From the NCBI RefSeq assembly GCF_014656195.1, contig NZ_BNBY01000003.1, positions 62,001-126,000 on the forward strand: DNA of 64,000 nucleotides, given 5' to 3'. Shown piece after piece: positions 20,562 to 38,659 of the stretch. Under the pieces are notes generated by a model. It made no database searches. It was not told the origin of the DNA and saw only the letters and a list, made by a program, of their open reading frames with translations. Made by a program: the position numbers and the translations under genes. Positions within the stretch are counted from its first letter, which is position 1, and each line of letters begins with the position of its first letter. This stretch comes from Kitasatospora xanthocidica (lineage in GTDB: Bacteria; Actinomycetota; Actinomycetes; Streptomycetales; Streptomycetaceae).

Positions 20562-21587
20562 TCAGGTATCCAGCAGGCCCGCCCGGCTGGCCGCGACGCC
20601 CGCCTGGAACCGGCTGTCGGCGCCGAGGTGCTCCAGGATCTCGGCGACGTGGCGGCGGGCGGTGCGCAGCGACATGCCCAGCCGGCGGGCGATCGCCTCG
20701 TCCTTCAGCCCGTCGGCGAGCAGCCGGAGGATGGTGCGGTGCAGTTCCCGGGCGACGGCCTCCATGTCGCGTCCGGTCGACTCCTGGAACGGGGTGGCCT
20801 GGCCCCAGGTGAGTTCGAACATCTCGTACAGGTAGGCGACGGTCGAGGGTTCGCGGATGACCACGGCTCCCAGCTCGGGGCCGGCGGCGGGGAGGAAAGC
20901 GGTCTCGCGGTCCATGATGATGATCCGCCCGGCCAGTTCGTGGGTGGTGCGGTACTCGGCGCCCAGGGCGGAGGCGGCGGCGACGTAGGCCTGGCTGGGG
21001 CCGTTGAAGCGGGCGGTGTGGTGGTAGAGGGTGCGGATGCGTACGCCGCGTTCCAGCATCGCCCGGTCGCGGACCAGGGCCTCGGACATCGCCTCGGGCA
21101 GCCGGGCGCCGCCGCCGGGCTGGCAGCTGACCACCTCGGTGGTGCACTGCTCGCCCAGCTGGTTGAGCAGGAAGCGGACCTCCGCGAGGGTGGGGATGAC
21201 CTCCATGCCCGCGCCGGACTCCCGGCTGTCCGGGAAGAACGGGGCGAACTCGTCGAACCGGCCGCGCATCCTGGCGATGTCGTCCTGGCGCTGCCGGATC
21301 TCCGCCTCGACGGGGGCCGCGCGCCGGAAGTAGGCCGAGTCGGGGGACACCACCCGCAGTGCTTCCTGCCGGGCGCCGGCCGGCGCCAGCAGTCCCGCGT
21401 CGAGCAGCCGCTCGACCGCGGCCGTCACCTCGGACGGGGACAGTCCCGTCGCCTGCGCCACGACCGCCGGATCGTGGGCTCCGACGTGCCGGCTCTCCGC
21501 AAACCATGCGTAGACGGACAGATCCGATTCCTGCCCCTGACCTGCTTCGACCCGACGTTCTGTCATATCGCGAGCGCTTTTGTCCAT
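20562..21587 (-). CDS. TrmB-like/LuxR-type transcriptional regulator
   Basis: A 341-residue regulator. The N-terminal winged helix (DLSVYAWFAESRHVGA, ATGLSPSEVTAAVERLLDAGLL) resembles TrmB. The middle 180 residues (VRIRTLYHHTARFNG, GRIIIMDRETAFLP) form the PLD-like sensor domain usual in this class. The C-terminal LuxR-type HTH at about residues 280-335 reads LHRTILRLLADGLKDEAIA, GMSLRTARRHVAEILEHLGA. The start is ATG 21587; a GTG twelve bases upstream is possible. It is divergent from a small secreted peptide gene and sits at the cluster edge, so it is a candidate pathway regulator. Confidence 0.85.
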   Translation of the reverse strand: MDKSARDMTERRVEAGQGQESDLSVYAWFAESRHVGAHDPAVVAQATGLSPSEVTAAVERLLDAGLLAPAGARQEALRVVSPDSAYFRRAAPVEAEIRQRQDDIARMRGRFDEFAPFFPDSRESGAGMEVIPTLAEVRFLLNQLGEQCTTEVVSCQPGGGARLPEAMSEALVRDRAMLERGVRIRTLYHHTARFNGPSQAYVAAASALGAEYRTTHELAGRIIIMDRETAFLPAAGPELGAVVIREPSTVAYLYEMFELTWGQATPFQESTGRDMEAVARELHRTILRLLADGLKDEAIARRLGMSLRTARRHVAEILEHLGADSRFQAGVAASRAGLLDT

Positions 21588-21727
21588 ATTTACCCCCACA
21601 CCCCTTTACTGCCAGGCAAGTTGATGAACGGCTCCAAGCATGTCCGCGATCTTCGATGCCCACCAGAGTGGAGTCATGGCCCCACCGGGAAATCGGGGCG
21701 AATACCAATGAATCCACGGGAGATCTC

Positions 21728-21922
21728 ATGAAGCGCATCATTTTCACCAGCGTGGCGCTGCTCGGCGCCGCAGCCGCCTTGCTGACGCCGACCGTCTTCG
21801 ACTCCTCCTCGACCGCCCGCGACGACGTCCCCGCCGCGATCGTCCAGCCGGGCCCCGCGATGGCCACCATCCTCACCTGCCCGCCCAACACCGTCTGCGA
21901 CGACACCTCCTGGGGAGGCTGA
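21728..21922 (+). CDS. Small secreted two-cysteine peptide, possible signal
   Basis: A 64-residue peptide. It begins MKRIIFTSVALLGAAAALL, a short Sec-type signal or anchor, followed by a Ser/Thr/Asp linker and the tail ILTCPPNTVCDDTSWGG with a C-x5-C pair and a terminal Gly-Gly. GGGAGA precedes ATG 21728. It lies between a divergent TrmB/LuxR-type regulator and a downstream LuxR-only gene starting five bases after its stop, so the two rightward genes are probably cotranscribed. No modification enzyme of a recognised RiPP class is adjacent. A role as an exported regulatory peptide is inference from position. Confidence 0.7.
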   Translation: MKRIIFTSVALLGAAAALLTPTVFDSSSTARDDVPAAIVQPGPAMATILTCPPNTVCDDTSWGG

Positions 21923-21927
21923 ACCCT

Positions 21928-22140
21928 TTGTTCACGACGCGGGAGAGGGAGATCCTCGACCACCTCGCACAGGGCCGCACCTCCCGGGCGATCGCCCGCC
22001 TGCTGTACCTGAGCCACCACACCGTGGAGACCCACATCCGCAACATGCGGGCCAAGAGCGGAGCCAGCAGCCGCACCCAGTTGCTGGCGATCGCGCTCGG
22101 GCTCGACACCGCCGGGCCCGTCGGGCGCGGCAGGGGCTGA
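21928..22140 (+). CDS. Stand-alone LuxR-type HTH protein
   Basis: A 70-residue protein consisting only of a LuxR/FixJ DNA-binding domain: FTTREREILDHLAQGRTSRA, IARLLYLSHHTVETHIRNMR, SSRTQLLAIALG. There is no receiver or sensor domain. The start is TTG 21928, nine bases after GGGGAGG; no ATG/GTG in frame would keep the whole helix bundle. It is probably translationally linked to the small peptide gene just upstream. It could activate the cluster or compete with the other LuxR-type regulators nearby. Confidence 0.75.
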   Translation: MFTTREREILDHLAQGRTSRAIARLLYLSHHTVETHIRNMRAKSGASSRTQLLAIALGLDTAGPVGRGRG

Positions 22141-22164
22141 TCCAGTACGAACCGAGCAGCACTC

Positions 22165-22180
22165 TCCGACGGGGGTCGGA
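22165..22180. terminator. Short hairpin after the LuxR-only gene
   Basis: TCCGAC, four G, GTCGGA: a 6-bp perfect stem 25 bases after the stop, followed by ATATA. It may be a weak terminator or a small operator; the evidence is only the symmetry. Confidence 0.3.
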
Positions 22181-22282
22181 TATACGTCCGGCCGGTCGAC
22201 GGCCCGCCACCGCGGGGCCGGGACCGGCGGGAACCGGGGGTGCTGGGCGGACCACTCCGGTAGAGGGGGATGTCACAGACCG

Positions 22283-22927
22283 ATGGAAATACCGATTCTG
22301 ATATGTGTGGGCCAGCCGCTGATGCGCAGCGGGCTCTCCTCGGCCCTCGTGGCCGAGCCGGACATCCGGGTGGTCGGCGAGACCTCGGCCGGGAGCACCG
22401 CCAGCGAGCTGGCCCGGGAGCTCAACCCCGCCGTCGTCGTCACCGACTTCGAACTCGCGGACATGACGGGCATCGACCTCGTCCGCGACCTCCTGGGGCC
22501 CGACCAGGAGTCCCCCCGCACGCTGCTGATGGCACCCCCCGAGGACGACGCCGTCCTGGAGTCCATCCTGGCCGGCGCCACCGGGATCGTCACCCGGAAC
22601 ACCATGGTGGAGGACTTCCCCCAGGCGATAAGAGCCACGGCCACCGGCCACTCCTTCCTCTCCCCCGACATCGCGGCGCTGCTCCTGGGCTGGGTCCGCG
22701 ACAAGCAGCCCGCCCTGTTCCCCGCGCTCAGCCTCAACCTCCTCACCTACCGCGAGCGCGAGATCCTGGCGCTGCTGGCGAACGGGATGTCCAACGCCGA
22801 GATCTCCAAGCGGCTCTGCATCGTGCAGTCGACGGTCAAGTTCCATATCTCCCAGCTGCTCAGGAAACTCGGGCTCAGGGACCGCCTGCAGGCCGCCGTG
22901 TTCGCCCACCAGAACGGTGTCATCTGA
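22283..22927 (+). CDS. NarL/LuxR-type response regulator with atypical receiver
   Basis: A 214-residue response-regulator-like protein. The receiver has Asp55 in VVVTDFELADM at the phosphorylation position, but the acidic pair normally after beta-1 is replaced (ILICVGQPLMRSG) and the conserved Lys is Arg (GIVTRN), so normal phosphorylation is doubtful. The C-terminal HTH is intact: LLTYREREILALLANGMSNA, EISKRLCIVQSTVKFHISQL. No histidine kinase is nearby. Its stop overlaps the ATG of the thioesterase gene by one base, so it is coupled to the pathway. Confidence 0.85.
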   Translation: MEIPILICVGQPLMRSGLSSALVAEPDIRVVGETSAGSTASELARELNPAVVVTDFELADMTGIDLVRDLLGPDQESPRTLLMAPPEDDAVLESILAGATGIVTRNTMVEDFPQAIRATATGHSFLSPDIAALLLGWVRDKQPALFPALSLNLLTYREREILALLANGMSNAEISKRLCIVQSTVKFHISQLLRKLGLRDRLQAAVFAHQNGVI

Positions 22928-23718
22928 TGTCACGACCGAACCAGGACGGCGCCGCCCGCTGGCTGCCGTGGACCAAGGGGACGACGGGGCTGCCCCGCGT
23001 CTACTGCCTGCCCTTCGCCGGCGGGTCGTCGCACTTCTTCCGTACCTGGACCGAGCCGGCCCGGCGGCTCGACGTCGAGGTCGTCCCGGTCGAACTGCCC
23101 GGCCACGGGACCCGGTTGCGCGACCCCCTGGTGACCGGCATGGCCGCCATGGTGGACGCGCTCTGCGAGGAGGTCCTCCGGGAGGAGCGCGGACCCTACG
23201 CGATCCTCGGCCACAGCATGGGCGCCAAGATCGCGTACGCGGTGGCCGAGGAGCTGGAGCGGCGGCCCGGGGCCACCCCGCCGGCCCGGCTCTTCGTCTC
23301 CGGATCCCTGCCGGCCTCGGCCGCCGAGCCGAAGCCGCTGCACGGCCTGCCGGACGCCGCGCTGACGGCGGAGCTCTCCGCGATGGGCGGCACGCCGCCC
23401 GAGATCCTCGCCAACGCCGAACTGATGGAGTTCATGCTGCCGGTGATCCGGGCGGACCTGACCCTGCTCGAACAGTGGCACGCGCCGGCCGGGAGCCGGA
23501 TCTCCTGTCCCATCACGGCGTTCGCCGGCCAGGACGACCAGGTCGTCCGGGCCGAGCTCTCCGCCGGCTGGGCCGACCACACCTCGGCGTCCTTCGCCCT
23601 CCGGGTCCACCCCGGGGACCACTTCTTCCTCCGGGAGGAGATGGACGTGATGCTCGGCCGGATCGCGGCCGAGCTCCAGGCACACGCCGTCGACCTCCCT
23701 ACCCCGGGCGGGGCGTGA
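22927..23718 (+). CDS. Type II thioesterase
   Basis: A 263-residue alpha/beta-hydrolase of the external (editing) thioesterase family that frees misprimed or stalled carrier proteins of NRPS/PKS lines. VYCLPFAGGSSHFF is the oxyanion-region start, GHSMGA holds the nucleophilic Ser (about residue 97), GQDDQVV the Asp and HPGDHFFL the His. Translation is coupled to the regulator through TGATG. Its presence supports an active NRPS next to it. It is convergent with the leftward operon, eight bases apart. Confidence 0.92.
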   Translation: MSRPNQDGAARWLPWTKGTTGLPRVYCLPFAGGSSHFFRTWTEPARRLDVEVVPVELPGHGTRLRDPLVTGMAAMVDALCEEVLREERGPYAILGHSMGAKIAYAVAEELERRPGATPPARLFVSGSLPASAAEPKPLHGLPDAALTAELSAMGGTPPEILANAELMEFMLPVIRADLTLLEQWHAPAGSRISCPITAFAGQDDQVVRAELSAGWADHTSASFALRVHPGDHFFLREEMDVMLGRIAAELQAHAVDLPTPGGA

Positions 23719-23725
23719 CGGTCCC

Positions 23726-25993
23726 TCACCCCTCCTGGACGCCGACCTCGATCAGTCCGGCCGCCTCGGCCAGCGCCCGTCCGACCTCCTGCGGCGTCGA
23801 TCCGACGGCGATGACGTGGCCCAGCCGGTCGTAGGCGCTCCGCGGCGGCCGGACCTCGCGCCCCGGCGTCCCGCTCACCAGGACCCGCTCCACGCCCGGC
23901 ACCCGCTCGGCCGCCTCGACCCCGGTCACGGCGGTCAGCCGGCCCGGCCGCGGCGCGGTCAGGAACCGCAGGCCGGCCCGGCGGTCCTGCTCGGCCGACA
24001 GGTTCAGCGGCAGGCCGGCGGCGGCGCGGATCTGCTGCTCCAGCAGGTCGATCCCGGTGGCCGGGCGGATCAGCTCGGGGATCATGCCGCCGGCCAGCCG
24101 TCCGTTGATCTCGATGACGGCCGGGCCGTCGGCGGTCAGCCTCAGCTCGACGTGGGCCGGGCCGCGCTCGAAGCCGACGGCCTTGAGCGCCTGCCGGGCG
24201 GTGTCGGCGATCCGTTCGGCCAGCGCGTCCTCGATGTCGGCCGGGAAGAGGTGGCCGGTCTCGACGAAGTGCGGCAGCGGGCTGACGGTGCGCTGGGTGA
24301 CGCCGACGCACCGGGCCTCGCCGTCCACGCCGAACAGCTCCGCGCTGAACTCGGGCCCCTCCAGGTACTGTTCGACCAGCACCGCGCCCGGGGTCCGCTG
24401 GCCGCGCACGTTGTGGGTGACGGCGAGCAGGTCGGTGGCGTGCCCGACGGCCGTCCCGGCGTCCTCGCACCACAGCACGGACTGCGAGCCGGACTCCCCG
24501 ACCGGCTTGACCACACAGGGCAGCCCCACCTCGGCGACGGCGGCCGCGACCGCGTCCGGGTCCGGGTCCGTGACGACCGCGAACCGGGGCTGGGTCACCC
24601 CGGCCTCGTGCAGGGCGGTGCGGGTCAGCGCCTTGTTCCGGCAGCGGGTCATCGCCTCCGGCGGGTTGCCGGGCGTGCCCAGGGCGGCGGCCGCCCGCGC
24701 GGTGTGCTCCAGGTAGAACTCGCTGGTCGTCGTGACGCCCGCCACCCGGCGCCCGGCGCTCACCCCGGCGATGGCCGCGGTCAGCGCGGCCTCGTCGTCG
24801 GTGTCGCAGACCACGACCCGGCAGCCGGTGTCGGCCAGGTCCGGGTAGCGCGCCGCGTCCTTGGTGAACAGCACCGGCTCCAGGGCCAGCCGGACGGCGG
24901 TGCGCAGCGCGATCATCCCGGTGCCGGTGGTGTTGGACTCGATGAAGAGCAGCAGCCGCCGGTCCCGGCGGGGTATCCGGGCGAAGGACCAGCTGGAGAC
25001 GGTGGCGCCGTACTCCACCTTCTCCGGGGCCGTGGCGACGGCACCGGCTTCGGAGGCGCCGGCTTCGGAGGCGTCGGCGTCGGCCTCGGCGTAGACGGTG
25101 TCCACGTAGCGGTCGCCGCGGTCCGGCATGATTCCGACCAGCCGGGTGCCGGGCTCGGCGCGGGCGGCGAGGTGGGTGAGGATCCGGTAGACCGAACCGG
25201 AGGTGTTGCCGCCGAAGATCTTCTGTTCCCGGGCCAGCCGGCGGGTGGCGTCGAAGGCCTCGTCGTCGGACAGCCAGTGCACCTCGTCGAAGAGGCGGTA
25301 GTCGATGTTCTCCGGGATGAGGCTGTTGCCGAGTCCGCTCTGCTTGCGGGTCGGGCGGTCCGGCTGGCCGAAGAGCACGCTGCCCACGCAGTCCACGCCC
25401 ACCACCGAGACGTCCGGCAGGCGTTCCAGCAGCGCCCTCGATGTCCCGCAGAGCGAGCCGCCGCTGCCCACCGCCCCGACCACGACGTCCACCGAGCCCA
25501 GGTCCGCGACCAGTTCGCCGGCCAGGCTGCGGTACGCGGCGGGGTTCTGCGGGTTGCTGTACTGCTGCGGCCAGAACGCGCCGGGCAGGCCGGCCATCAG
25601 CTCGGCCAGCCGCTCCAGCCGGGCGCTCTGCCACCCCTGCCCGGTCATCGCCGCCACGACGTGGACCTCGCAGCCCAGGGTGCGCAGCTTGGCCAGGGTG
25701 ATGGGGTCGATGCGCGGGTCGGTGACGATGTGCACCGGGTGGCCGAGGTAGGTGCCGACCAGGGCGACCCCGAGCGCCATCGTGCCCGAGGAGCTCTCCA
25801 CGATCGGCGCGCCCTCGGCCAGCGCGCCGGTGCGCCGGGCGTCGAGGATGACCTGCCGGGCCACCCGGTCCTTCATCGCGAAGAGGTTCTGCATCTCCAG
25901 TTTGGCGAAGACCTCGACGCCTTCGGGGGCGTCCACCCGCAGCCGCACCGCCGGGGTGTGGCCGATGCCGTCGATGACCGATTCCTGCCGCAT
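23726..25993 (-). CDS. Cysteine-synthase-like PLP enzyme fused to an ATP-grasp domain
   Basis: A 755-residue fusion. Residues 1-330 are a fold-type II PLP enzyme: Lys41 in LFAMKDRVARQ is the expected Schiff-base lysine, SSSGTMALGVA binds the carboxylate and GAVGSGGSLCG the phosphate. Residues about 360-755 form an ATP-grasp ligase: RNKALTRTALHEAGV, LPCVVKPVGESGSQS and VIEINGRLAGGMIPELI. With the GHMP kinase and ASL-like genes upstream it fits beta-replacement of O-phosphothreonine, as proposed for 2,3-diaminobutyrate in pacidamycin- and friulimicin-type pathways. The ATP-grasp partner reaction is unknown. Between the domains is an Ala/Glu/Asp-rich linker. AAGGA precedes ATG 25993. Confidence 0.85.
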   Translation of the reverse strand: MRQESVIDGIGHTPAVRLRVDAPEGVEVFAKLEMQNLFAMKDRVARQVILDARRTGALAEGAPIVESSSGTMALGVALVGTYLGHPVHIVTDPRIDPITLAKLRTLGCEVHVVAAMTGQGWQSARLERLAELMAGLPGAFWPQQYSNPQNPAAYRSLAGELVADLGSVDVVVGAVGSGGSLCGTSRALLERLPDVSVVGVDCVGSVLFGQPDRPTRKQSGLGNSLIPENIDYRLFDEVHWLSDDEAFDATRRLAREQKIFGGNTSGSVYRILTHLAARAEPGTRLVGIMPDRGDRYVDTVYAEADADASEAGASEAGAVATAPEKVEYGATVSSWSFARIPRRDRRLLLFIESNTTGTGMIALRTAVRLALEPVLFTKDAARYPDLADTGCRVVVCDTDDEAALTAAIAGVSAGRRVAGVTTTSEFYLEHTARAAAALGTPGNPPEAMTRCRNKALTRTALHEAGVTQPRFAVVTDPDPDAVAAAVAEVGLPCVVKPVGESGSQSVLWCEDAGTAVGHATDLLAVTHNVRGQRTPGAVLVEQYLEGPEFSAELFGVDGEARCVGVTQRTVSPLPHFVETGHLFPADIEDALAERIADTARQALKAVGFERGPAHVELRLTADGPAVIEINGRLAGGMIPELIRPATGIDLLEQQIRAAAGLPLNLSAEQDRRAGLRFLTAPRPGRLTAVTGVEAAERVPGVERVLVSGTPGREVRPPRSAYDRLGHVIAVGSTPQEVGRALAEAAGLIEVGVQEG

Positions 25994-26023
25994 GTCCGTC
26001 CGTCCTTGGGAGGTTGGGGAAGT

Positions 26024-26084
26024 GCCCCTGCTGGGAGTGCCCTGCTGGGGTTGTCCCTGCTGGAAGTCGTCCCTACTGGGAGGG
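26024..26084 (-). repeat. Four imperfect tandem repeats of 15-16 bp
   Basis: Plus-strand units GCCCCTGCTGGGAGT, GCCCTGCTGGGGTTG, TCCCTGCTGGAAGTCG and TCCCTACTGGGAGGG lie end to end between the GHMP kinase and the PLP/ATP-grasp gene. They overlap the last codons of the kinase. They may form alternative hairpins in the operon transcript or be a slippage minisatellite. Confidence 0.6.
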
Positions 26085-26981
26085 CTGGGTGAGGGTCCGG
26101 AACAGCAAGGTGTCGTCGCCGAGGGCCTCGCAGGCCGCGTGCGCCTCGGCCACCTTGCGGGCGCGGTCCGGGTCCGCGTCGTCGAACAGCAGGCCCAGCA
26201 TGGTGCCGCTGTGCGCGCACACCACGCCGAGCGCCCCGGTCCGCCCCGCGATGGCGAGCATCGCGTCCAGGTGCCGCTTGGGGGCGAACCGCTGGTTGAG
26301 CACCGCGCTGCGGGTGGTCACCCGGCCCACGGCGGAGAGGTCCCCGGCGCGTACGGCGGCGGCCAGGTCGGCCAGCAGTCCGGTGAACTCGGCGGTGTCG
26401 GCCGGCGAGTAGCGCTTGGGGCGCTTGTTGAAGGTGACGGTGTCCAGGTGGCCGCCCTCGTCCACCGCCACCACGGTGGCCGGCGCCAGTTCGCCGAGGG
26501 CCTCGCGCAGCCGTACCTCGCGGTGCTCGAAGACGACGACGCCCGGGTGCATCACCCCGTCGGTCGGCTCGATCGGGCGCAGCCAGTGCTCCACCGCCGT
26601 CGGGCCGGTGTCCAGGCCGAGCGCGCCGCCGACCGCGCGGGCGGTGGCGACCAGGTCGGCCGAGGAGCTGGCCAGGCCCTTGCCGATCAGCAGGTCGCTG
26701 TCCAGGATCAGGGTCCCGCCGCCACCGGGCTGGTGGGCCGTCAGCATGGCCTCGGCCAGCCGCAGGGACTTGGTCTTGTGGGCGGGGAAGACCCGCAGCG
26801 GGCCGACCGGGTCGAAGCGGAACCAGGCCCGGGAGCGGAGCGTGATCGGCAGGGTGACGAGGAAGTCGGTGCCGTCGGGCAGCCGCCCCTGGAGCAGTTC
26901 GCCGAAGGTGCCGGGGCCGTCGGCCCGGCCGCTGCGCAGGTCGGCGCCCGGGCGGCGGGTGATCAGGCTGGGGCCGGTCAC
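26073..26981 (-). CDS. GHMP kinase, PduX-like (L-threonine kinase)
   Basis: A 302-residue GHMP-family kinase. GPGTFGELLQG at about residue 20 and LIGKGLASSSADLVATAR at about residue 95 (the GLxSSxA ATP loop) match PduX-type L-threonine kinases, which make O-phospho-L-threonine; VVCAHSGTMLGLLFD is the C-terminal GHMP motif. GTG 26981 overlaps the stop of the ASL-like gene (GTGA). In this operon phosphothreonine would feed the PLP enzyme encoded next. Confidence 0.85.
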   Translation of the reverse strand: MTGPSLITRRPGADLRSGRADGPGTFGELLQGRLPDGTDFLVTLPITLRSRAWFRFDPVGPLRVFPAHKTKSLRLAEAMLTAHQPGGGGTLILDSDLLIGKGLASSSADLVATARAVGGALGLDTGPTAVEHWLRPIEPTDGVMHPGVVVFEHREVRLREALGELAPATVVAVDEGGHLDTVTFNKRPKRYSPADTAEFTGLLADLAAAVRAGDLSAVGRVTTRSAVLNQRFAPKRHLDAMLAIAGRTGALGVVCAHSGTMLGLLFDDADPDRARKVAEAHAACEALGDDTLLFRTLTQPSQ

Positions 26982-28513
26982 GGGGTGCCCGCTTGGGTGG
27001 GGCCCTCGGTGGACGCGTTGGTCGGGCCGTCGGTGGAGGCGTCGGCGAGCAGGGCGTCCACGCGGGCCGCGGCGGCGCTCGCCGTCTCGGCGCGCAGCCG
27101 CCACTGCCCGGCCACCTCCCGGTAGCCGCGGTCCTGCGCGGCGAGCATGGCCCGGACGGCGTCGGGGTGCGTCGACCCCGTGGACCGCTTGACCCGGACG
27201 GCCCGGTCCGCGTCGAGGGAGCCGGCCAGCAGTGCGCCGGGCTCGGGCACCCGGTGGCCGTGCTCCTCGGCGACCGCCGCGAGCAGCGGGCCGTCGGGGG
27301 TGGCCGCGGTCAGGCCCTTGGCGATGGCGGCCCGGACGTACGCGCCGGCGATCACCTGCGCCGTCCGCCACGGGACACCGGCCTCCAGGGTCAGCCGGTT
27401 CGCGAGGGTGAAGGCGCCGAGGAAGTCCCCCTCGCAGGCCTCGCGCATCCGGTCGGTCCGGAAGGTGGCGGTGGCGAGCGCGGTGTGGGCCAGCCGCAGG
27501 GCCGAGCGCAGCGCGGCGAACTGCTCCCGGAGGTGCCGACCGGCCTCCTTGGAGACCTCGACGCTGTTGGCGTACGGGGTGCCGTGCTGGGCGAAGGCGA
27601 GCTGGGCCGCGCAGCCGACGACGTGCGAGCAGCGGCCGCGGATCCGTTCCAGGACCGGGAAGTTGCGCTTCTGCGGCATCGCGGCCGAGATCCCGGCCAG
27701 GTCGTCGGGGAAGTCGACGAAGCCGAACCCGGCGCCGCTCCAGGTCATCAGGTCGGTGGTGAAGCGGCTGAGGAGGACGGCGAAGGTCGACAGCTCGGAC
27801 GCGACCCCGAGGGCCCAGGAGCGGGAGGCCACCGCCATCAGGGCGTGCGGCTGGGGCTGCCGGAAGCCCAGCAGTGCGGCCATCCGCTCGCGGTCCCAGG
27901 GCAGTTCCTGGCCGGCCATGCTGCCCGCGCCGAGCGGGGAGCGGTCGATCCCGTCATAGGTGGCCAGCAGGCGGCGGGCCGCGTCGAGGGTCTCCTCGGA
28001 GAGCGCCGAGAGGTAGAAGGCGGGGGTGACGGTCTGCGCGGCCTGGGCGTGGGTGTAGCCGGGCATCGGGCTGTCCGGCAGTTCGGCGGCGCGCGCCGCC
28101 ACGGTGCGTCCGAAGGCGATCAGGCCGTCGGCGAGGGCGCGGACGTTCTCCCGGCTGGAGAGCAGTTGGCCGCAGGCCTGGAAGTCGTTGCGGCTGCGGT
28201 CCACGTGCCAGGCGGCGAACGGTGTGGTCCCGCCGCGGGCGACGTGGCGTTCCATGGCGAAGAAGATGTCCGACATGTTGTCCCGCGGGTCCGCCCGGAT
28301 CAGCTCGGGGGTCAGCTCGTCGAGCCGCCCGGCGATCGCGGCCGTCCCCTCCTGGTCGACCAGGCCCATCCGGCGGTACTCCAGCAGCAGCACCTTCTCG
28401 ATGGACACGTAGTGCGGCAGCAGGGCTTCGGCCTCGTAGCCGAACTGCGGGGCCAGCACCTCCTCGTCCCAGACCTCGCTGGGCACGCCGTCGATCCGGC
28501 CGGTCACTGCCAT
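26978..28513 (-). CDS. Argininosuccinate lyase-like enzyme
   Basis: A 511-residue member of the aspartase/fumarase superfamily closest to argininosuccinate lyase. HVDRSRNDFQACGQ matches the GRSRND motif, MPGYTHAQAAQTV the second conserved region, and ISAAMPQKRNFPVLERIRG the signature loop that carries the catalytic Ser. The predicted role is to release fumarate from an aspartate adduct, leaving an amino group on the diaminobutyrate skeleton. ATG 28513 overlaps the stop of the C-T gene by 10 bases. The last 30 residues are Thr/Ala/Gly-rich. A primary arginine-pathway role is unlikely in this setting. Confidence 0.87.
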   Translation of the reverse strand: MAVTGRIDGVPSEVWDEEVLAPQFGYEAEALLPHYVSIEKVLLLEYRRMGLVDQEGTAAIAGRLDELTPELIRADPRDNMSDIFFAMERHVARGGTTPFAAWHVDRSRNDFQACGQLLSSRENVRALADGLIAFGRTVAARAAELPDSPMPGYTHAQAAQTVTPAFYLSALSEETLDAARRLLATYDGIDRSPLGAGSMAGQELPWDRERMAALLGFRQPQPHALMAVASRSWALGVASELSTFAVLLSRFTTDLMTWSGAGFGFVDFPDDLAGISAAMPQKRNFPVLERIRGRCSHVVGCAAQLAFAQHGTPYANSVEVSKEAGRHLREQFAALRSALRLAHTALATATFRTDRMREACEGDFLGAFTLANRLTLEAGVPWRTAQVIAGAYVRAAIAKGLTAATPDGPLLAAVAEEHGHRVPEPGALLAGSLDADRAVRVKRSTGSTHPDAVRAMLAAQDRGYREVAGQWRLRAETASAAAARVDALLADASTDGPTNASTEGPTQAGTP

Positions 28514-30093
28514 GTCTCTCCTTCGGGGTCGGTCCGGTCGTCCCGGCGCGTCGCGGTGTGCCGCTCCAGTTCGGCGGCGAGCCGGGCGACGGTGGGGTTC
28601 GAGAAGAAGGCGTCGACGGTGGTCTCGACGCGGTGGTCGGCGGACAGCCGGGCGAGCAGGCGCAGCGCCTGCAGCGAGTGGCCGCCGACGGCGAAGAAGT
28701 CGTCCTCGACGCCCACCCGGTCGACGCCGAGCACCTCGGCCCACGCGCGGGCCACCAGTTCCTCGGCGGCGGTGCGCGGCGGGACGTGGCCGGGCGGCGG
28801 CACCGGCTCGGCGCCGCCCTCGGGCCCGGGGCCGGCCGGGAGCCGGGACAGCGGTGTCGCCGGGTCGGCGAGGGCCGCCGTGAGCACCGCCGCGTAGTCG
28901 GCGAGCAGCCCCGCGGCGGTCTCCGGCCCGAACAGGGCGGTGTTGTACTCGACGCGGACGGCGCCGCCGGACACCTCCAGCAGCAGGTCGTCCTCGGCCG
29001 CGGTGGACGGGGGCCCGAAGCTCTCGGCCGCCGTGACGTTGAACGCCAGCTGGTAGAGCGGTGGCAGGCCGGGGCCGCGCCGCGGGGCGAGCTGCTCGAC
29101 CACGGTCTGGAACGGCAGCTCCTGGTGGTCGCGGGCCGCCCGCCACACCGCCCGGACGCGGTCGACCAGCGCGGCGTACGAGGGGTCGCCCGAGGCGTCC
29201 ACCCGGAGCACCACCATGTTCACGAAGGTGCCGACGAGGGGCAGCAGTTCGGGGCGGTCCCGGCCGGAGAGCGGCACCCCGAGGACGACGTCGTCCCGGC
29301 CGGAGCGCCGGTGGACCAGGGCCGCGTACCCGGCGAGCAGCAGCTCGAACGGCGTGACCCCGTACCGGTCGGCGGCCTGGGCGAGCGCGGGCGCCGTGCC
29401 CGCCGGGAGCTCGGTCCGCAGCTCCGCGCCGGCGAAGGACCGCCGGGCCGGGCGTGGCCGGTCCAGCGGCAGTCCGTGCGCGGGGGGCAGCCCGGCGAGC
29501 TGCTTCCGCCAGTAGCCGGCCAGCGCGGCTGTCCCGGCGCCGTCGAGCCGCTCGCGCTGGCGGCGCGCGTAGTCGCCGTAGGAGAGGGGGAGCCGGGGGA
29601 CGCTCGGCGGCCGGTCCTGCTCGAACGCCGCGCAGAACTCGGTGAGCTCCGCGTGCAGGTTGAACAGTGACGGGGCGTCGCAGACGGCGTGGTGGGCGAC
29701 GAAGAGCAGCCGCCAGCGCCCGGCGCCGAGCCGGACCAGGCCCGCGCGCCAGAGCGGTGCCCGGGAGAGGTCGAAGGCGGTGTGCTTCAGCCGGTCGGCG
29801 AGGGCCTCGCGCGCCGCCCGCCGCTCCTCCTCGGGGCGGCCGGACAGGTCGAGGACCTCCAGGTCGGGGTCGACGCCGCCTCGGACGACCGCGTGCAGCG
29901 CGCCGTCCACGACCCGGAACCCGGTGCGCAGCGCCTCGTGCCGTGCCACCACGGCGGCCAGGGCCGCCCGGATCTGCCCTTCGGAGACGTCCCCGTGCAG
30001 CGGCCACTGGTCGGTGACGTGGTAGAGCGCGGTGTCGGCGGCGAACCGGCTGGCCAGCCAGGCGCGTTCCTGCGCGAAGGAGGCGGCGGTCAT
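28504..30093 (-). CDS. NRPS protein: condensation-thiolation (C-T)
   Basis: A 529-residue didomain with no A domain. The C domain covers about residues 5-430; the active-site motif reads HHAVCDA (usual HHxxxDG, last Gly replaced by Ala). The T domain is at about residues 450-525 with FFAVGGHSLQALRLL carrying the phosphopantetheine Ser. The T domain must be loaded by an A domain on another protein, most simply one of the free A proteins in the same operon. The start at 30093 overlaps the oxygenase stop (ATGA). Confidence 0.9.
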   Translation of the reverse strand: MTAASFAQERAWLASRFAADTALYHVTDQWPLHGDVSEGQIRAALAAVVARHEALRTGFRVVDGALHAVVRGGVDPDLEVLDLSGRPEEERRAAREALADRLKHTAFDLSRAPLWRAGLVRLGAGRWRLLFVAHHAVCDAPSLFNLHAELTEFCAAFEQDRPPSVPRLPLSYGDYARRQRERLDGAGTAALAGYWRKQLAGLPPAHGLPLDRPRPARRSFAGAELRTELPAGTAPALAQAADRYGVTPFELLLAGYAALVHRRSGRDDVVLGVPLSGRDRPELLPLVGTFVNMVVLRVDASGDPSYAALVDRVRAVWRAARDHQELPFQTVVEQLAPRRGPGLPPLYQLAFNVTAAESFGPPSTAAEDDLLLEVSGGAVRVEYNTALFGPETAAGLLADYAAVLTAALADPATPLSRLPAGPGPEGGAEPVPPPGHVPPRTAAEELVARAWAEVLGVDRVGVEDDFFAVGGHSLQALRLLARLSADHRVETTVDAFFSNPTVARLAAELERHTATRRDDRTDPEGETWQ

Positions 30094-31082
30094 CCGGTCC
30101 CTCCGCCGGGCACGACGCGGTCGGGCAGGACGTGGTCGGACAGGACGTGGTCGGGGAGGCGGACCGGGTCGCCGAGGACGACGGCGACCTCCCGGGGGCC
30201 CTCGTACGGCTCCCGGCTGTGCGCCATCCGGATGTTGTCGACGACCAGGACGTCGCCGTCGCGCCAGGACTCGCCGAAGGCCGCCGCGTCGTAGGCCGCG
30301 TTGACGGCCTCGACGGTGCCGGCGTCGATCGGCGTGGTGTCGCCGTGGGCGGTGGTGAACGGCAGGCCGGTCGGCCCGTACTGGTCGAGCAGGTACTCGC
30401 GGATCACCGGGTCCATGGTCAGTTCGTTGAGGAAGGCGATCTGGTTGAACCAGCCGGGCACGCCGGTGCGGGGGTGGGCGACGACGGCGGCGCGGCGCTG
30501 CGCGGTGCGCAGTCCTCCGTCGAACCACTCCTGCCGGATGCCCTCGGCCGCGCAGTAGGCGTCGACCAGGGCGCGGTCCTCGGTGCCGAAGGCGTCGGTC
30601 CACGGCACGCCGACGTCCTGGTACGACCGCAGCAGCAGCCAGCCGTCCCGGCGGAACGGCTCGACCAGGCCGGCCGGGAGGGCGCGCAGCACCTGCTGGG
30701 AGTCGGCGAGCATCGTCCGGCCGCCGCGGTCCGGGGCGGTGAGGCAGCCGAACACCATCAGGCCGGGGACCTCGGCGGCGTAGCTCTGCTCGTGGTGCAT
30801 GCACATCGGGGCGTCCGCGGGCCAGTGCGAGGCCGAGTAGACCGTCTCGCCGTGCCGGTCGCGGGGTGCGAACCCCTCCCGTTCGGCCATCGGCTCGATC
30901 CCGAGCGCGGCGGTGACGGCCGCGAGGTCGGCGGGCGAGGCGACGCCCGAGCCGCGCAGCAGGACGGCCCCGGAGGCCTCGACCTCGGCGCGGACCTCCG
31001 CGCGGTGCTCGGCGGCCCAGCGCGGGCCGGGGGCGGCTTCCAGGATCCGCAGGGCGGGTGCGGTGCGGGTGGCGGGGGTCAT
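30090..31082 (-). CDS. TauD/SyrP-like Fe(II)/2-oxoglutarate oxygenase
   Basis: A 330-residue non-heme iron oxygenase. MHHEQSY (His96, Glu98) is the HxD/E metal motif and NIRMAHSREPYEG supplies the distal His and the Arg for 2-oxoglutarate. SyrP-type members hydroxylate the beta-carbon of amino acids, often while bound to a carrier protein. It sits between an A-T gene and a C-T gene with ATGA overlaps on both sides, so a residue loaded by that A-T protein is the likely substrate. The resulting hydroxyl could be the site for carbamoylation or acetylation. Confidence 0.87.
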   Translation of the reverse strand: MTPATRTAPALRILEAAPGPRWAAEHRAEVRAEVEASGAVLLRGSGVASPADLAAVTAALGIEPMAEREGFAPRDRHGETVYSASHWPADAPMCMHHEQSYAAEVPGLMVFGCLTAPDRGGRTMLADSQQVLRALPAGLVEPFRRDGWLLLRSYQDVGVPWTDAFGTEDRALVDAYCAAEGIRQEWFDGGLRTAQRRAAVVAHPRTGVPGWFNQIAFLNELTMDPVIREYLLDQYGPTGLPFTTAHGDTTPIDAGTVEAVNAAYDAAAFGESWRDGDVLVVDNIRMAHSREPYEGPREVAVVLGDPVRLPDHVLSDHVLPDRVVPGGGTG

Positions 31083-33253
31083 CGCCGGGCCTCCGCGGTC
31101 CGGCCGGCCGCCTTGCGGTCGAGGAGTCCGGCCACCTCGGCCACGGTCGGGGTGGTCTTCAGCTCGCCGACCGTCACCGCGCGGTCCAGGGCGATGGCCA
31201 ACCGGATCGCGGCCAGCGAGGTGCCGCCGAGCTCGACGAAGCGGGAGCCGCGGCCGACCTGGTCGAGCGGCACGTTGAGCAGTTCGGCCCAGAGCCGGGC
31301 GACCCGGCGCTCGGTGTCGGTCTCGGGGAGCGCCACCTCGCCGTCGGCGGCCGGCCGGCCGCCCTGCGCCTTGGCCTCGGCGGTCAGCGCCTTCTTGTCG
31401 ATCTTGCCGTTCGGGGAGAGCGGCAGCCGGTCGAGGCGGTGCAGTCGGCCCGGCACCATGTAGTGCGGCAGGACGGCGGCCAGGGCCCCGTCCACGGCCC
31501 CGGGCTCCGGGGCGGCGGTGCCGCTGTAGAAGCCGACCAGCTGCGGGTCCTCGGCCGAGCCGGCGATCACCACGGCGCCGTCCCGCACGCCGGGGACCTG
31601 GAGCAGCCGGTTCTCGATCTCGCCGATCTCGATCCGGAAGCCGCTCACCTTCACCTGCGAGTCCCGGCGGCCGAGGTACTCGAACTCGCCGGAGGGCAGC
31701 CGGCGGCCGAAGTCGCCGGAGTGGTAGAGCCGTTCGCCGGAGTGGTACGGGTCCGGCCGGTACGCGGCGTCGGTGCGGGCGGCGTCGTTGACGTACCCCC
31801 GGCCGACGCAGACCCCGGCGAAGACGATCTCCCCCGGCGCGCCGTCCGGGACCATCCGCAGCCGCTCGTCCACCACGTACACCCGGACGTTGCGGGTCGG
31901 CGGGCCCAGCGGGACGAACCGGCCGGCCGGCGGGCCGTGCAGCACGCCGTGGTTGGTGTCGTCCGAGACCTCGGTGGTGCCGTAGCAGTTGACCAGCGGG
32001 ATGCCGGGGAAGGCGGCGAACCAGCGGTGCACCAGCTCGGTCTTGAGCGCCTCGCCGGTCACCGCGAGGACGCGCACCGACGGCAGGCCGAGGCTGTCCC
32101 CCTGAAGCGTCTCCAGCACCAGGTCGAGGTAGGAGGGCACCAGCTGGGCCACCTGGACGCCCGCCCGGGTGACGGTCTCCACGAAGCGGCGGACGTCGGT
32201 GACGGTGTCCTGACCGACGATCTCCGTCCGGCCCCCCACCAGCAGCGCGCAGACCAGCTGCCAGAGCGAGATGTCGAAGCACTGCGGGGCGGTCTGGGCG
32301 ATGACGTCGCCCTCGCGGACGCCCAGGTCCTCGATCTTGGAGTAGAGGTGGTTGAGGAAGCCCGCGTGCTCGCACATCGCGCCCTTGGGCTCACCGGTCG
32401 AGCCCGAGGTGAAGTAGATGTACGCCAACTGGTCGGCGCGGACGGGCAGTCCGAGGTCCTGCTCGGCGTCGGAGCCCGGGCCGGCCGGCTCCTCGGTCAG
32501 CAGCGAGACGGTCACCTCCCGCCCCCGCACCGCCTCGTCGAGCTGGGCCAGCCCCGGGTCCGCCAGCACCCGGCGGCAGTCGCTGCGCTCCAGCACCACG
32601 GAGATCCGCTCGGCCGGGAAGGACGGGTCCAGCGGGAGGTAGCAGCCGCCCGCCTTGAAGATCGCGATCACCGCGGCCATCCACTCCAGCGAGCGCTCGG
32701 CCACCACCGCCACCACGTCCTCGTCGGCCAGCCCCCGCTCCCGCAGCGACCGGGCGATCCGGTTGGCGCGGCCGTTCAGCTCCGCGTACGTCCAGCTCCG
32801 CCCGCCCTGCACCGCGGCGACGGCGTCGGGGTGCCGGCGCACCCGCTCCTCGAACAGCTCGTGGAAGCGGCGGTCCGGCAGCGGCCGGACCGGGCCGGCC
32901 GAGGCCGCGAGGGCGGCCGCCAGCTCCTCCCCGGCGACCAGGCCGTGCGCGTCGTGCGCCTCGTCCGGGGCGGCGGCCATCCGCTCCAGCACCGCCCGGA
33001 CGTAGCCCTCGGCACGGTCGGCGCCGACGTGCTCCTGCTCGCCGGCCTCCTTCCCGACCCGCTCGGCCTCGGCCCGCCCCTGCGGGGTGGCCACCCGGGC
33101 GATCAGCTCGCGCCAGCTCGCACCCTCGTCGCCGAGCGCGTCGGAGCCGGTCAGCACCGCCGCCACCTTGAACGACGCGGCCAGCCGCACGGTGTCCGGG
33201 CCGACCCCGGCCTCCACCGCCAGGGCCGCGATCGCCGCTTCGGCGTTCGTCAT
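31079..33253 (-). CDS. NRPS protein: N-terminal extension-adenylation-thiolation (A-T)
   Basis: A 724-residue protein. The first 125 residues (ending LPDRRFHELFEERVRRH) form a helical region not part of a standard A domain; I do not recognise it. The A domain is at about residues 128-640: YFTSGSTGEPKG, CFDISLWQ, NCYGTTEVSDD, YHSGDFGRR, NGKIDKK. The specificity residues read by eye are D-I-W-Q-A-T-C-D-D; two Asp late in the pocket suit a basic substrate such as diaminobutyrate (inference). The T domain has VELGGTSLAAIRL. Both ends overlap neighbours by ATGA. Confidence 0.9.
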   Translation of the reverse strand: MTNAEAAIAALAVEAGVGPDTVRLAASFKVAAVLTGSDALGDEGASWRELIARVATPQGRAEAERVGKEAGEQEHVGADRAEGYVRAVLERMAAAPDEAHDAHGLVAGEELAAALAASAGPVRPLPDRRFHELFEERVRRHPDAVAAVQGGRSWTYAELNGRANRIARSLRERGLADEDVVAVVAERSLEWMAAVIAIFKAGGCYLPLDPSFPAERISVVLERSDCRRVLADPGLAQLDEAVRGREVTVSLLTEEPAGPGSDAEQDLGLPVRADQLAYIYFTSGSTGEPKGAMCEHAGFLNHLYSKIEDLGVREGDVIAQTAPQCFDISLWQLVCALLVGGRTEIVGQDTVTDVRRFVETVTRAGVQVAQLVPSYLDLVLETLQGDSLGLPSVRVLAVTGEALKTELVHRWFAAFPGIPLVNCYGTTEVSDDTNHGVLHGPPAGRFVPLGPPTRNVRVYVVDERLRMVPDGAPGEIVFAGVCVGRGYVNDAARTDAAYRPDPYHSGERLYHSGDFGRRLPSGEFEYLGRRDSQVKVSGFRIEIGEIENRLLQVPGVRDGAVVIAGSAEDPQLVGFYSGTAAPEPGAVDGALAAVLPHYMVPGRLHRLDRLPLSPNGKIDKKALTAEAKAQGGRPAADGEVALPETDTERRVARLWAELLNVPLDQVGRGSRFVELGGTSLAAIRLAIALDRAVTVGELKTTPTVAEVAGLLDRKAAGRTAEARR

Positions 33254-36144
33254 GAGTTCTCACCTTCCAGTTCGTTCCGGCGTGCCGGCAGGGGCCAGGG
33301 CAGCCGCGCGCGATCACGTTTGTTGGTGGCGGTGCGCGGCAGGTCGGCCAGCACCGCGATCAGGTCGGGGACCGCGGGGGCCGGCAGCCGGGCCGCGACC
33401 AGCCGCCGCAGCTCCTCCCCGGTGACCCCGGCGTCGGCCACCACGTAGCCCACCAGGCAGGGGTCGCCGGCGGCGGTGGTGCGCACGGCCGCCGCGGCCT
33501 CCCGCACCCCGGGCTGCTGCTCCAGCACCGCCTCGACCTCGTCCAGCTCGACCCGGTTCCCGCGGATCTTCACCTGGTTGCCGGTCCGGCCGGTGAACGC
33601 CAGGGTGCCGTCCGCCCGCCAGTAGCCGCGGTCGCCGGTGCGGTACAGGGTCCGGCCGGTCCGCCAGGGGTCGGGCAGGTACGCCGAGGCCGTCTCGACG
33701 GGCCGGCGGTGGTAGGAGCCGGCCAGGAAGCCGCTGCGCAGATGGATCTCGCCGGGCACCCCGGCCGGGCACGGCCGGCCGAGCGCGTCCAGGACCAGCG
33801 CCTCCCGGCCCGGGATCGCCCCGCCGATCGGCACCCCGGCCGGGAACGACCCGCCCGGGGGCAGCTCGTGGTGGGTGGCCAGGACGCACTCGGTGGGCCC
33901 GTACAGGTTGTGCAGCCCCGGCCGCACCGCCCGGTGCGCCCAGGCCTCGGCCAGGTCCACCGGGAACACCTCACCGGCGATCAGGACGTGCCGCAGGTCC
34001 GGCAGTTCGCCGCCCTGCGCGTCCAGCGCCTCGGTGAGCAGCCGGAAGAACGACGGCACGGTCTGGATCTGCCCGATCCGCTCCCGCCGCAGCCAGCGCA
34101 CCACCGAGACCGGATCGCGCCGGGCCGCGTCCGGCGGCAGGCAGAGCTCGGCCCCGGCGGTGAGCGCCGCGAAGATCTCGGTGTACGCGGCGTCGTAGGT
34201 GAGCGGCGCCCACTGGGCGACCCGGCTCCCGGGCCCGATGCCGAACCGCTCGCGCTGCCACTCGGCGAACTGCGCGAAGGCGGCCCGCGACAGCGCGATG
34301 CCCTTGGGTGTGCCGGTGCTCCCCGAGGTGTGCACGATGCACAGCGGGTGGTCGGCGACCGGCGGGGCCGGGAAAGTGTCCCGCTCCCCCGGTGGCTCGT
34401 CCCCTGGGGCGGGTTCCAGCCTCAGCACCGGCAGGCCCGCGAACCGGCCGTCCGGTCCGAGCAGCGCCGGGTGCGCCGCGGTGGCGGCCTCGTCCGCGAG
34501 CACGCAGACCGCGCCGGTGCCGGCCAGGATGTCGCGCAGCCGGGCGTCCGGGTCGGCGGGGTTCAGACAGCTGAAGGTCGCGCCGATGCGCATCGCGCCG
34601 AGGACCGCCGCGATCTGCCCGGGACCGCCGCTCAGCAGCAGCGCCACCACCTGCCCGGGGCCCACGCCGTGGCCGGCCAGGGCGTGGGCGGTCCGGCCGC
34701 TCCACCGGTCGAGCCCGCCGTAGGCGAGCGTGCCCTCCGCGGAGCGCACCGCGACCGCCCCGGGGGCGTCCTTCACCCGCGCCGCGAACTCCTCGTCCAG
34801 GAAGGCAAGGTAGTCGCGGTACGGCCGGGTGGTGGCGGGGGCGGGTGCCGGGTACGGCGCGGGGCGGCCGGAGAGGTCGAGTTCGGCCAGTGGCCGGTCG
34901 GGGGTGTCCAGCCCGAACTGCAGCGCCCGGACGAGGTGGTCGGCGAAGCCCTCGGCCGTCACCCGGCCCGGCAGCGCGCCGGTGAGGACGACGGTGAACT
35001 CCGCCGGCCCGGTCAGGGCCAGGGTCAGCCGGCCCTCCGGGTCGGGCGGGCAGTCGACGGTCAGCTCGGCCGCGACGCCCGGCAGGTCCAGGGCGGCGGC
35101 CGGGAGGTGCGGCCCGGCGAACTCCGCGCGGATCGGGAAGGACGCGGCCTCGGCACCCGCCTCCGGGGCCGTCCGCACCAGGGCGGCGAGGCGAGCCGGC
35201 GTCAGGGCGTCGGAGAGGTCCAGCCGGATCACCCGCCGCGCCGGGCCGTCGGGCGGGGTGGCCGCCTCGTCGGGCGCGGTTGGCGTTCCGGCGGGCACGG
35301 GCGCCGTCCCGGCGGGCACGGGCGCCGTCCCGTCCGGCGTGGTCAGCGTTTCGTCGGGCACGGTCAGCACGGCCTCCGACGTCCCGGCGTACCGGCCGAG
35401 CACCGCCGCGAAGGCGGCGAGCAGCCGGTCCGCCGCGTCGCCGGGCTCCTCGGACTTCCCGGGCTCGCCCGGCAGTGCGCGGGACGCCCGCTCGCCGGGG
35501 AACCAGGCGCCCGGCAGGGGTCCGGTCGCGGGCGCCGGGGCGTCCGCGACCCGCGCGCGGTAGGCGGCGCCGAGGTCCCGGGTCAGCCCTGCGACCGACC
35601 AGGCGTCGGCCCGCTCCCCGTCCACCGTGAGCAGGAGTTCGTACGAGCCGGCGCCGAGCCCGGCGAGGCAGGCCCGCAGCCGGGGGCGGCCGGCGGCGCC
35701 GAGCGGCCGGGCGGCCTCGTCGGCCGCCAGCTCGGCGAGGACCCGCCGCTGCTGCTCCCCGGCGGACCGGGAGAGGTCGATGACCCTCAGCCGGACCCGG
35801 CCCGGGCGCTCCCCCGACCCGGCGAGCCCGGGACGCGCGGCCACCAGGGCCTCGACGGCCGCCGACAGCGCGGTGACGTCCGGCTCCCCGGTCAGCCGGG
35901 CCCGGAGCACGGCGTTCGCGGGCGGGGCCGCGGCGGAGGTGTTCGCGGGCGGCGCCGTCGCGGAAGTGTTCGCGGGCGGCGCTGCGGCAGAAGCGTTCGG
36001 GGGCGGCGCTGCGGCGGAACCGCTCACGGGAGCGCTCACGGGTGAGGCCGCCGCGGGAGCGTGCACGGGCGGCGCCTCGGCAGAAGCGCTCGCGGGAGCG
36101 TGCACGGGCGAGGCCGTAGCGGAAGTGTTCGCGGGAGCGTTCAC
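33250..36144 (-). CDS. NRPS protein: degenerate condensation-adenylation (C*-A), no T domain
   Basis: A 964-residue protein starting at GTG 36144 (GTGA overlap). Residues 1-75 are an Ala/Pro/Ser-rich linker containing 9-residue repeats. Residues about 75-430 look like a broken C domain: the catalytic site reads [14 protein letters not shown] where HHxxxDG is expected. The A domain follows: [38 protein letters not shown], and it ends with TNKRDR. The pocket reads D-A-T-Q-L-A-L-L-A (hydrophobic, substrate unknown). No T domain follows, so it must load a T domain elsewhere. Confidence 0.88.
35915..36022 (-). repeat. Four tandem 27-bp repeats inside an NRPS gene
   Basis: Units start at 35915, 35942, 35969 and 35996, beginning TTCGCGGGCGG(G/C)GCC on the plus strand. 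Translated on the minus strand each gives nine residues of the form N(T/A)SA(A/T)APPA. They make a flexible, in-frame, length-variable linker at the N-terminus of the C*-A protein. Confidence 0.85.
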
Positions 36145-37877: not shown

Positions 37878-38659
37878 ATGGATCCATCCCTCATTCGCTG
37901 TGCGATGACGGTCATCGGGTCGATGCTGGGCAGGTGCCGGGTCAGCCCGCGGGCCTCGATCGCCCTGGTCACCAGGTGCAGTTCGGTGCAGCCGGCGACG
38001 AACGCGGTGGCCCGGTACTTGGGCAGCAGCGCGCGGACGAAGTCGATCGTCGCGAGCCGGTCGCCGTTGCGCTTGAGCCGGTAGACGTGGCGGTGCAGCC
38101 GCTCCTGGTCCTCCTCGTCGGGCAGGACCAGGCGGTGCGCGAACTCGGGCCAGCGCTCGTGGTCGGTGAAGACTCCGGCGAGGACGCTGCCCCGGGTGCA
38201 CAGCACCAGGTGGCGGCCGGGGCGTTCGGCGAGCTGCTCGAAGACCAGGTCCACGAGGGAGACGCAGCGGGAGCGCAGCCGCTCCGGCAGCAGCCGGATC
38301 GCGGGGTGCGCGGTGATGCAGGCCACCACGACGACGTCGGCGCCGGCGGTGAGCAGCCGGTCGACCGAGTCCTCCAGTGCCGCGCGCACGAGGTCGACGG
38401 TGCCGGACTGGATGGCCGTGGTCCGGTCGGCCACGGCCGGGTCGGACCAGAGCAGGATCCGCGCGGCGAGCTGCTCGCGCTCGGGCGGTTCGAGGCCGTA
38501 CACCGTGTTGAGCAGTTCGGTGGAGGCCAGCGGGCCCATGCCGCCGATCACGCCGATCAGCGGTCGGCGGGCGCCGGGCTCGCCGGGGCGCGCGGGGGCG
38601 TCGGCCGCCCGCGGCCGTACGGCGCCCGGCGGGGGCGTGGTGACGCGTTCTCGGGTCAT
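37874..38659 (-). CDS. Aspartate/glutamate racemase family protein
   Basis: A 261-residue cofactor-independent racemase. [13 protein letters not shown] begins the fold. The two catalytic cysteines are in [12 protein letters not shown] (Ile where Asn is usual) and [10 protein letters not shown]. It should interconvert L- and D-Asp/Glu or a related acidic residue in the cytoplasm. No epimerisation domain was found in the NRPS genes, so this enzyme may supply a D-amino acid directly to an A domain. A leader of about 30 residues (Pro/Ala/Arg-rich) precedes the fold; a later start is possible. Confidence 0.85.

Follow-up and report, generated by a model that had tools for sequence, protein, structure and literature searches.

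Why does a gene for a small, secreted-looking peptide stand among three genes for LuxR-type regulators, next to a nonribosomal peptide synthetase (NRPS) cluster, in Kitasatospora xanthocidica? The locus lies within positions 62,001 to 126,000 of contig NZ_BNBY01000003.1 (assembly GCF_014656195.1), a stretch of 64,000 nucleotides that was analysed whole and that we call the window. We consider it probable that the peptide, the TrmB/LuxR-type regulator encoded next to it and a single-domain LuxR protein (mini-LuxR) make up a peptide autoinduction (quorum-sensing-like) circuit, with a ComRS-like logic built from unrelated proteins. All four open reading frames (ORFs) from which a previous, sequence-only reading had drawn a similar proposal were located where it had placed them (Table 1).

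The pairing of peptide and regulator was sought first from the peptide and then from the regulator. A contig scan of genomes with the peptide alone found no relative, because only its signal-like start and its tail are conserved, and a peptide search of 70 genomes of the genus matched nine at E <= 0.1, with one convincing case besides the window (G032, E 7e-11). The regulator matched in 330 of 394 genomes of the family at 1e-40. At 91 regulator loci, drawn from this search and from the DNA-pattern search described below, an ORF with [DN][STG][SG]WG lay within 1300 bp upstream, in sense, at 42 and within 1300 bp downstream at 12, with a single motif ORF on the antisense upstream strand. A second, named set comprised 79 distinct loci, kept as the best of 147 relatives in the regulator alignment; it overlaps partly with the 91 (L120 with G032/L004; L156 with G283:C139), and the two sets are thus not independent. 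By record title, the named loci are mostly from Streptomyces; Kitasatospora, Actinacidiphila, Streptantibioticus, Actinoplanes and, in a single record, Saccharothrix also occur.

Simple rules, not a trained predictor, served to call small ORFs, starts and signal peptides. On these rules, 55 of the 79 named loci hold a small signal-peptide-like ORF with [DN][ST][SGTA]WG near the regulator. The sequence-only reading had called for a search for DTSWGG-like tails beside TrmB/LuxR regulators, and such tails do concentrate there. Specifically, 54 motif ORFs fell in the 385 kb within 2 kb of a regulator and 4 in the 567 kb farther out, compared with 2 and 1 for the reversed motif, and 53 of the 54 lie on the other strand from the regulator, in a divergent or tail-to-tail arrangement. 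In addition, peptide, mini-LuxR, response regulator (RR) and regulator keep the same order in two named orthologous clusters, those of Kitasatospora sp. NBC_00039 and Streptomyces sp. NRRL S-350 (L004/L120; regulator, peptide, mini-LuxR, RR). Since this order is kept and the motif ORFs concentrate near the regulator, the pairing exceeds chance. Separately, TrmB/LuxR-type genes were seen paired or tripled side by side in several Streptomycetaceae genomes (L254 on G112:C1; G078, G100, G106, G115, G118 and G121).

An unbiased search of the 394 genomes for the DNA pattern of DTSWGG plus stop returned 18 matches vs. 2 for the reversed pattern. Two of the 18 carry TGG in place of the stop. Among the other 16 (window included), ten lie within 1.5 kb of a window-type regulator, two adjoin a mini-LuxR-like ORF, one is directly followed by a LuxR-type ORF, two are signal-like precursors with no such neighbour in ~8 kb and one is unconvincing. 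Three of the six matches that lack a close regulator have a regulator homolog 28–35 kb away on the same contig.

The constant part of the 55 precursors is D[ST][SGTA]WG or NTSWG; 27 end in WGG and the rest carry a further tail. The motif is encoded by 21 distinct 15-mers across the 55 loci, and because the codons vary, the tail is under selection as protein. In the orthologs, the peptides are 50–61% identical vs. 88–94% for regulator, mini-LuxR and RR, and the last six residues are identical; the orthologous peptides keep a signal-like start and a CP..T.C.DTSWGG end. Two cysteines, which the earlier reading had taken as characteristic, proved not to be general: any Cys after residue 25 occurs in 21 of the 55 peptides and a CxnC directly before the motif in 2 of 55. 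We dropped them as a signature, the conserved part being D[ST][SG]WG(G). Two or three motif copies are present in 7 of the 55 precursors. Locus L172 (promoter ~5915, minus strand), at first scored as empty, holds a precursor with five spaced DSGWG copies.

Could the peptide be a product rather than a signal, that is, a secreted effector or structural product whose WG tail acts outside the cell, while the regulator answers to another ligand such as a sugar? The regulator's fold matches TrmB, whose sensor binds sugars, and binding of the peptide is our own proposal. Nonetheless, we regard such a product as unlikely, given that the motif variants track the regulator clades, that the pro-region drifts with only the short tail fixed, and that tandem copies are spaced. 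On the regulator tree the motif variant takes 20 changes vs. 47.5 with shuffled labels (0 of 200 as low), a clustering that near copies inflate. The third motif position is mostly S or T on the window's side of the tree and G on the sister side, and NTSWG and DTGWG are each restricted to one regulator clade.

A short precursor with a conserved C-terminal motif and a variable middle, found in biosynthetic clusters, is also what a ribosomally synthesised and post-translationally modified peptide (RiPP) would look like, with the WG tail as core or as recognition sequence for a modifying enzyme and with ordinary regulators beside it. However, no maturation enzyme is annotated near the NBC_00039 ortholog in 41 kb, none is among the 25 most frequent Pfam families of 61 neighbour proteins at 12 sampled loci (28 further families fall outside that tally), and the constant partner is a regulator. 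A RiPP seems quite improbable, although single loci might have such an enzyme.

For the autoinduction circuit, the promoter region is the central evidence. When 23 non-redundant divergent intergenic regions (the window's own and 22 others) were searched for motifs de novo, an operator-like element emerged with a likelihood ratio of 458 vs. 97–112 in five shuffles. The 28-bp matrix scores 36.2 bits at its site in the window; the rest of the 64 kb stays below 9, and 20 shuffled windows reached 14.2 at most. In the whole genome, the peptide promoter is the single site at <=3 mismatches to the consensus. Among held-out loci, a site of >=16 bits lies upstream of 32 of 33 peptide genes. Because five of the 33 (L120, L122, L123, L156, L180) are close kin of training loci, we also counted loci in convergent order separately, with a site at 27 of 28. 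Sites were recovered at 18 of the 22 training loci; the four misses are the NTSWG clade, in which the element has diverged. Across 952 kb, the matrix found 83 sites of this strength, with 56 before a WG ORF, 23 close before a mini-LuxR and 9 before neither. Orphan sites predicted peptides at four loci that had been scored as empty (L130, L146, L147, L168). A consensus scan of 121 genomes of a sister genus gave 23 matches vs. 7 for the reversed pattern: all nine with <=2 mismatches adjoin a mini-LuxR-like ORF, and of the 14 with 3 mismatches, four have a peptide and ten have nothing.

Downstream of the nearly invariant TTGRTGA of the element, an A and a T four bases apart recur at a fixed distance, as in a TANNNT -10 box. 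The pair is present in 45 of the 56 peptide promoters, in 17 of the 19 mini-LuxR promoters and in 4 of 8 others, when ~3% would be expected from base frequencies, and the mini-LuxR promoters were not used in finding the box. The element ends ~13 bp before the expected start of a -35 hexamer and lies ~60 bp upstream of the likely start site, a position that would fit an activator, not a repressor. An element shared between the peptide and a transcription factor gene also fits a feedback loop better than it fits a secreted product. Since peptide loci without mini-LuxR retain the element (12 of 16), it is likelier that the TrmB/LuxR protein binds it than that the mini-LuxR does.

Some loci have more than one such site. 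At L154 (~3715 and 8403, minus strand), two elements accompany two peptide genes, which stand to either side of the regulator; L153 and L174 also have two elements, L153 with the variant motif DNGWG. At L163 (10530, plus strand), an element-like site of 20.8 bits lies ~100 bp before an ORF whose start, by eye, resembles that of a SARP-type activator, which is a possible direct output of the circuit.

The mini-LuxR (usually 70–90 aa, one GerE domain) lies within 3 kb of the regulator at 39 of the 55 peptide loci vs. 4 of the 24 others (Fisher p 1.5e-5), and 38 of 43 small LuxR genes lie downstream of an element site. It comes after the peptide within a single operon, as the window shows, or it is a separate gene that has a promoter of its own and is often divergent from the regulator. 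In the window it has a TTG start preceded by ggagg, 5 bases past the peptide stop, and the two genes probably share one transcript. The GGAGG that serves as its ribosome-binding site is also part of the codons of the peptide tail, so the small ORF might be a leader (an attenuator or translational coupler) for the mini-LuxR, with a peptide product that has no function. We find this extremely unlikely, as the convergent order gives the peptide its own promoter apart from the mini-LuxR, 16 of the 55 peptide loci lack a mini-LuxR within 3 kb, and the tail codons vary synonymously.

To judge what the regulator might sense, we modelled it with AlphaFold (44-row alignment, pLDDT 85, pTM 0.63). In the model, an N-terminal winged helix and a long helix are followed by a PLD-like domain (residues ~129–273) and, at the C-terminus, a GerE domain. 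Fold matches included NucT (Z 16.4; 2.4 Å over 134), Nuc (Z 15.3) and TrmBL2 (Z 15.4, 235 residues, another domain arrangement; Foldseek E 5.8e-11), with NarL-type DNA-binding domains at Z ~11; these comparisons rest on the matches listed, and families outside that list are not thereby excluded. The sensor domain aligned with the sugar-binding domain of TrmB (2f5t) at Z 13.2 and a root-mean-square deviation of 3.0 over 128. A sequence search of the PDB gave GerE relatives only, plus one weak other match. By eye, the conserved YHHTARFNGPSQ stretch does not read as an HxK catalytic motif, which suggests that the PLD-like domain is a sensor rather than an enzyme.

Taken together, these findings are most simply read as an autoinduction loop with a relay; the points in its favour are the gene set, strands that oppose each other, tandem motif copies, motif–receptor congruence and, above all, the shared activator-type box. 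The precursor, judging from its signal-like N-terminus, would be exported by the general secretion route and trimmed to a short D[ST][SG]WG(G) peptide, here DTSWGG (codons at 21902–21919). This mature peptide would be re-imported by an oligopeptide permease and bind the PLD-like sensor domain of the TrmB/GerE regulator. The loaded regulator would then bind the element, whose spacing and presence before both gene types are observed, and activate the promoter of peptide and mini-LuxR. Finally, the mini-LuxR, made from the same or a second element-bearing promoter, would pass the signal on to further genes, probably in the adjacent biosynthetic cluster. In the sequence-only reading, a secreted peptide, its cognate TrmB/LuxR sensor and a LuxR-type output formed such a circuit. 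That core is strongly supported by conservation, motif–receptor congruence, multi-copy precursors and the shared promoter element, and it is shorn of direct NRPS control, the two cysteines and the NarL-type part.

Several observations weigh against this interpretation. By eye, the peptide of the window shows no clear AxA cleavage site, and neither a dedicated protease nor an oligopeptide transporter was seen among the parts of the module. No peptide was scored near the regulator at 24 of the 79 loci, four of which have an element-predicted peptide, and L172 the multi-copy one. The final matrix finds no site at the four NTSWG-clade loci, and none lies at the NRPS genes of the window, whose link to the circuit is neighbourhood alone. 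With regard to breadth, most loci are from Streptomycetaceae, a class-wide draw of 148 genomes from 82 genera yielded the regulator family (at 1e-45) in 28 genomes and 10 genera, and more distant loci, like the paralog loci of the same genome, are mostly without the WG motif.

Looser scans of the paralog and other-family loci returned candidates only. In a sister regulator clade (L192, L193, L194, L196, L198), another conserved divergent small ORF lies ~150–225 bp from the regulator and ends in ..PTPHW, ..PVPHW or ..PPNW, with a common TAREVLNQPPRPVRG-like stretch; these ORFs are possibly a second signal family. A paralog locus of the same genome (L237; 2437–2664, minus strand, C1) has a secreted-looking small ORF ending in APGDWRWE, and the corresponding end at L094 is HGDLRWE. 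Trp-ending peptides of other kinds (..PTPHW, ..DWRWE) may serve sister clades of the receptor. A 45-aa signal-like peptide ending in DSSWGCGGACRPGH adjoins a TrmB/LuxR regulator in another family's genome (L249; 3773–3913, minus strand).

The remaining genes of the locus are listed in Table 1. The start codon of the regulator is uncertain (GTG 21599, ATG 21587, or ~21566 when the annotated ortholog start is mapped across). Pfam places GerE in all three regulators and a receiver domain in the NarL-type one, and supports the thioesterase, whose gene overlaps that of the NarL-type protein at TGATG; for the window peptide, no Pfam or NCBIfam family scored above cut-off. In the NBC_00039 annotation, the peptide is a hypothetical protein, and both mini-LuxR and regulator are called helix-turn-helix regulators. 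The likely phospho-acceptor Asp is present in the NarL-type protein, which by eye lacks the N-terminal acidic pair (ICVGQPLMRSG) and may thus be an atypical, unphosphorylated response regulator. The sequence-only reading had counted it as a member of the circuit; it is met with this NRPS cluster and is absent from the recurring set elsewhere, and we dropped it from the module.

Table 1. Features of the Trp-Gly peptide locus and its surroundings (window positions).
Feature	Position	Strand	Basis
TrmB winged-helix / PLD-like sensor / GerE (LuxR) regulator, 345 aa	20562..21599	minus	ORF, Pfam GerE and HTH, AlphaFold model, orthologs 91–94%
Conserved operator-like element CTTTACTGCCAGGCAAGTTGATGAACGG	21604..21631	plus	de novo motif, 36.2 bits
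-10-like hexamer CAGAGT, family-wide fixed spacing	21664..21669	plus	columns 62 and 66 of aligned promoters
Precursor of putative secreted peptide, 64 aa, ends TCPPNTVCDDTSWGG	21728..21922	plus	ORF; tail kept in orthologs and paralogs
Single-domain GerE protein (mini-LuxR), 70 aa, proposed relay	21928..22140	plus	ORF; Pfam GerE 4e-15; recurring partner
NarL-type response-regulator-like protein, cluster-specific neighbour	22283..22927	plus	ORF, Pfam GerE and receiver domain
Type II thioesterase, coupled to preceding gene	22927..23718	plus	ORF, Pfam
NRPS cluster: PLP/ATP-grasp enzyme, kinase, lyase, C domain, TauD, NRPS genes, Asp/Glu racemase, AsnB	23735..40548	minus	tblastn of NBC_00039 proteins

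What, then, would the circuit control? The biosynthetic genes beside it are 84–95% identical (tblastn) to annotated proteins of the Kitasatospora sp. NBC_00039 plasmid, and the stretch in common with that plasmid (23735–41953) also has a carbamoyltransferase. The 61 neighbour proteins at the 12 loci sampled from the 79 include 9 AMP-binding, 7 PP-binding, 5 condensation and 5 MFS domains. Because NRPS domains are frequent among these neighbours, the circuit is likely to control specialised metabolism, with the NRPS cluster of the window as a putative beneficiary of the signal. Control of that cluster had been part of the sequence-only reading, and a direct route through the element is unsupported; we dropped direct control of the NRPS operon, given that the one site in window and genome is at the peptide promoter.

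Many clinical antibiotics come from streptomycetes, whose signalling is generally ascribed in the main to small molecules such as butyrolactones. To our knowledge, genetically encoded peptide pheromones with identified receptors are not established in them. No description of such peptides or modules was found in open-licence papers of PubMed Central, a scope that leaves out preprints and most subscription journals. According to part of one of these sources, signals in this phylum are typically made by enzymes (PMC10075063). We lean towards a new class of actinomycete pheromone systems, in which clade-specific Trp-Gly peptides, intracellular TrmB/PLD/GerE receptors, a dedicated operator and a single-domain LuxR relay would form local switches of NRPS and other biosynthetic genes. 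If this is true, silent clusters of many strains could be turned on by short synthetic peptides, with the tail encoded in each genome predicting which peptide to use. Element, peptide, TrmB/LuxR and mini-LuxR together also provide a precise rule for mining genomes. The module may be a general way for antibiotic producers among Streptomyces relatives to talk and switch genes on.

How does the module compare with known systems? Density signalling through gamma-butyrolactone receptors (ArpA/AfsA type) controls streptomycete antibiotic clusters by means of a small-molecule signal and TetR-type receptors, whereas here the sole TetR gene in the ortholog's 41 kb is ~14 kb from the module. Acyl-homoserine-lactone systems (LuxR/LuxI) share the GerE DNA-binding domain; the regulator differs from them in its PLD-like sensor, none of the three regulators has an autoinducer-binding Pfam domain, and no LuxI is annotated beside the NBC_00039 ortholog. 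As for the agr/ComCDE type, no membrane histidine kinase is annotated as such beside the NBC_00039 module, with a 1317-aa ATP-binding protein 1.2 kb beyond the regulator. The TrmB-family features of winged helix, coiled coil and PLD-like sensor are all found in the regulator, as in archaeal TrmB and TrmBL2; unlike these, it has an extra C-terminal GerE domain and is paired genetically with a peptide precursor and a mini-LuxR instead of a sugar transporter operon.

Re-import of a peptide is plausible in a streptomycete given the precedent of BldK, on which an extracellular oligopeptide signal, Bld261, depends in Streptomyces coelicolor (PMC11303876, in part). There the transporter is the known component, and that part of the source names no such precursor gene or receptor. 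The closest logic is that of ComR/ComS/SigX of streptococci (RRNPP family), where, in the portion of PMC4686606 that describes it, one box precedes the pheromone gene as well as that of a second transcription factor, with positive feedback. Like it, the module has a small gene for an exported propeptide beside an intracellular regulator (55 of 79 loci, export judged from signal-like N-termini) and a box before both gene types. Unlike it, the receptor is of TrmB/PLD/GerE and not TPR-repeat type (best matches TrmBL2, TrmB, the PLD family and NarL-type domains), the relay is a single GerE domain and not a sigma factor, the motif is unrelated, the phylum is another and import is assumed. With no TPR receptor found, no fit to LuxR/LuxI sensing and no kinase partner seen, we file the module under no existing family: by its logic it may be of the secreted-peptide, intracellular-receptor kind, and by its parts a class of its own.

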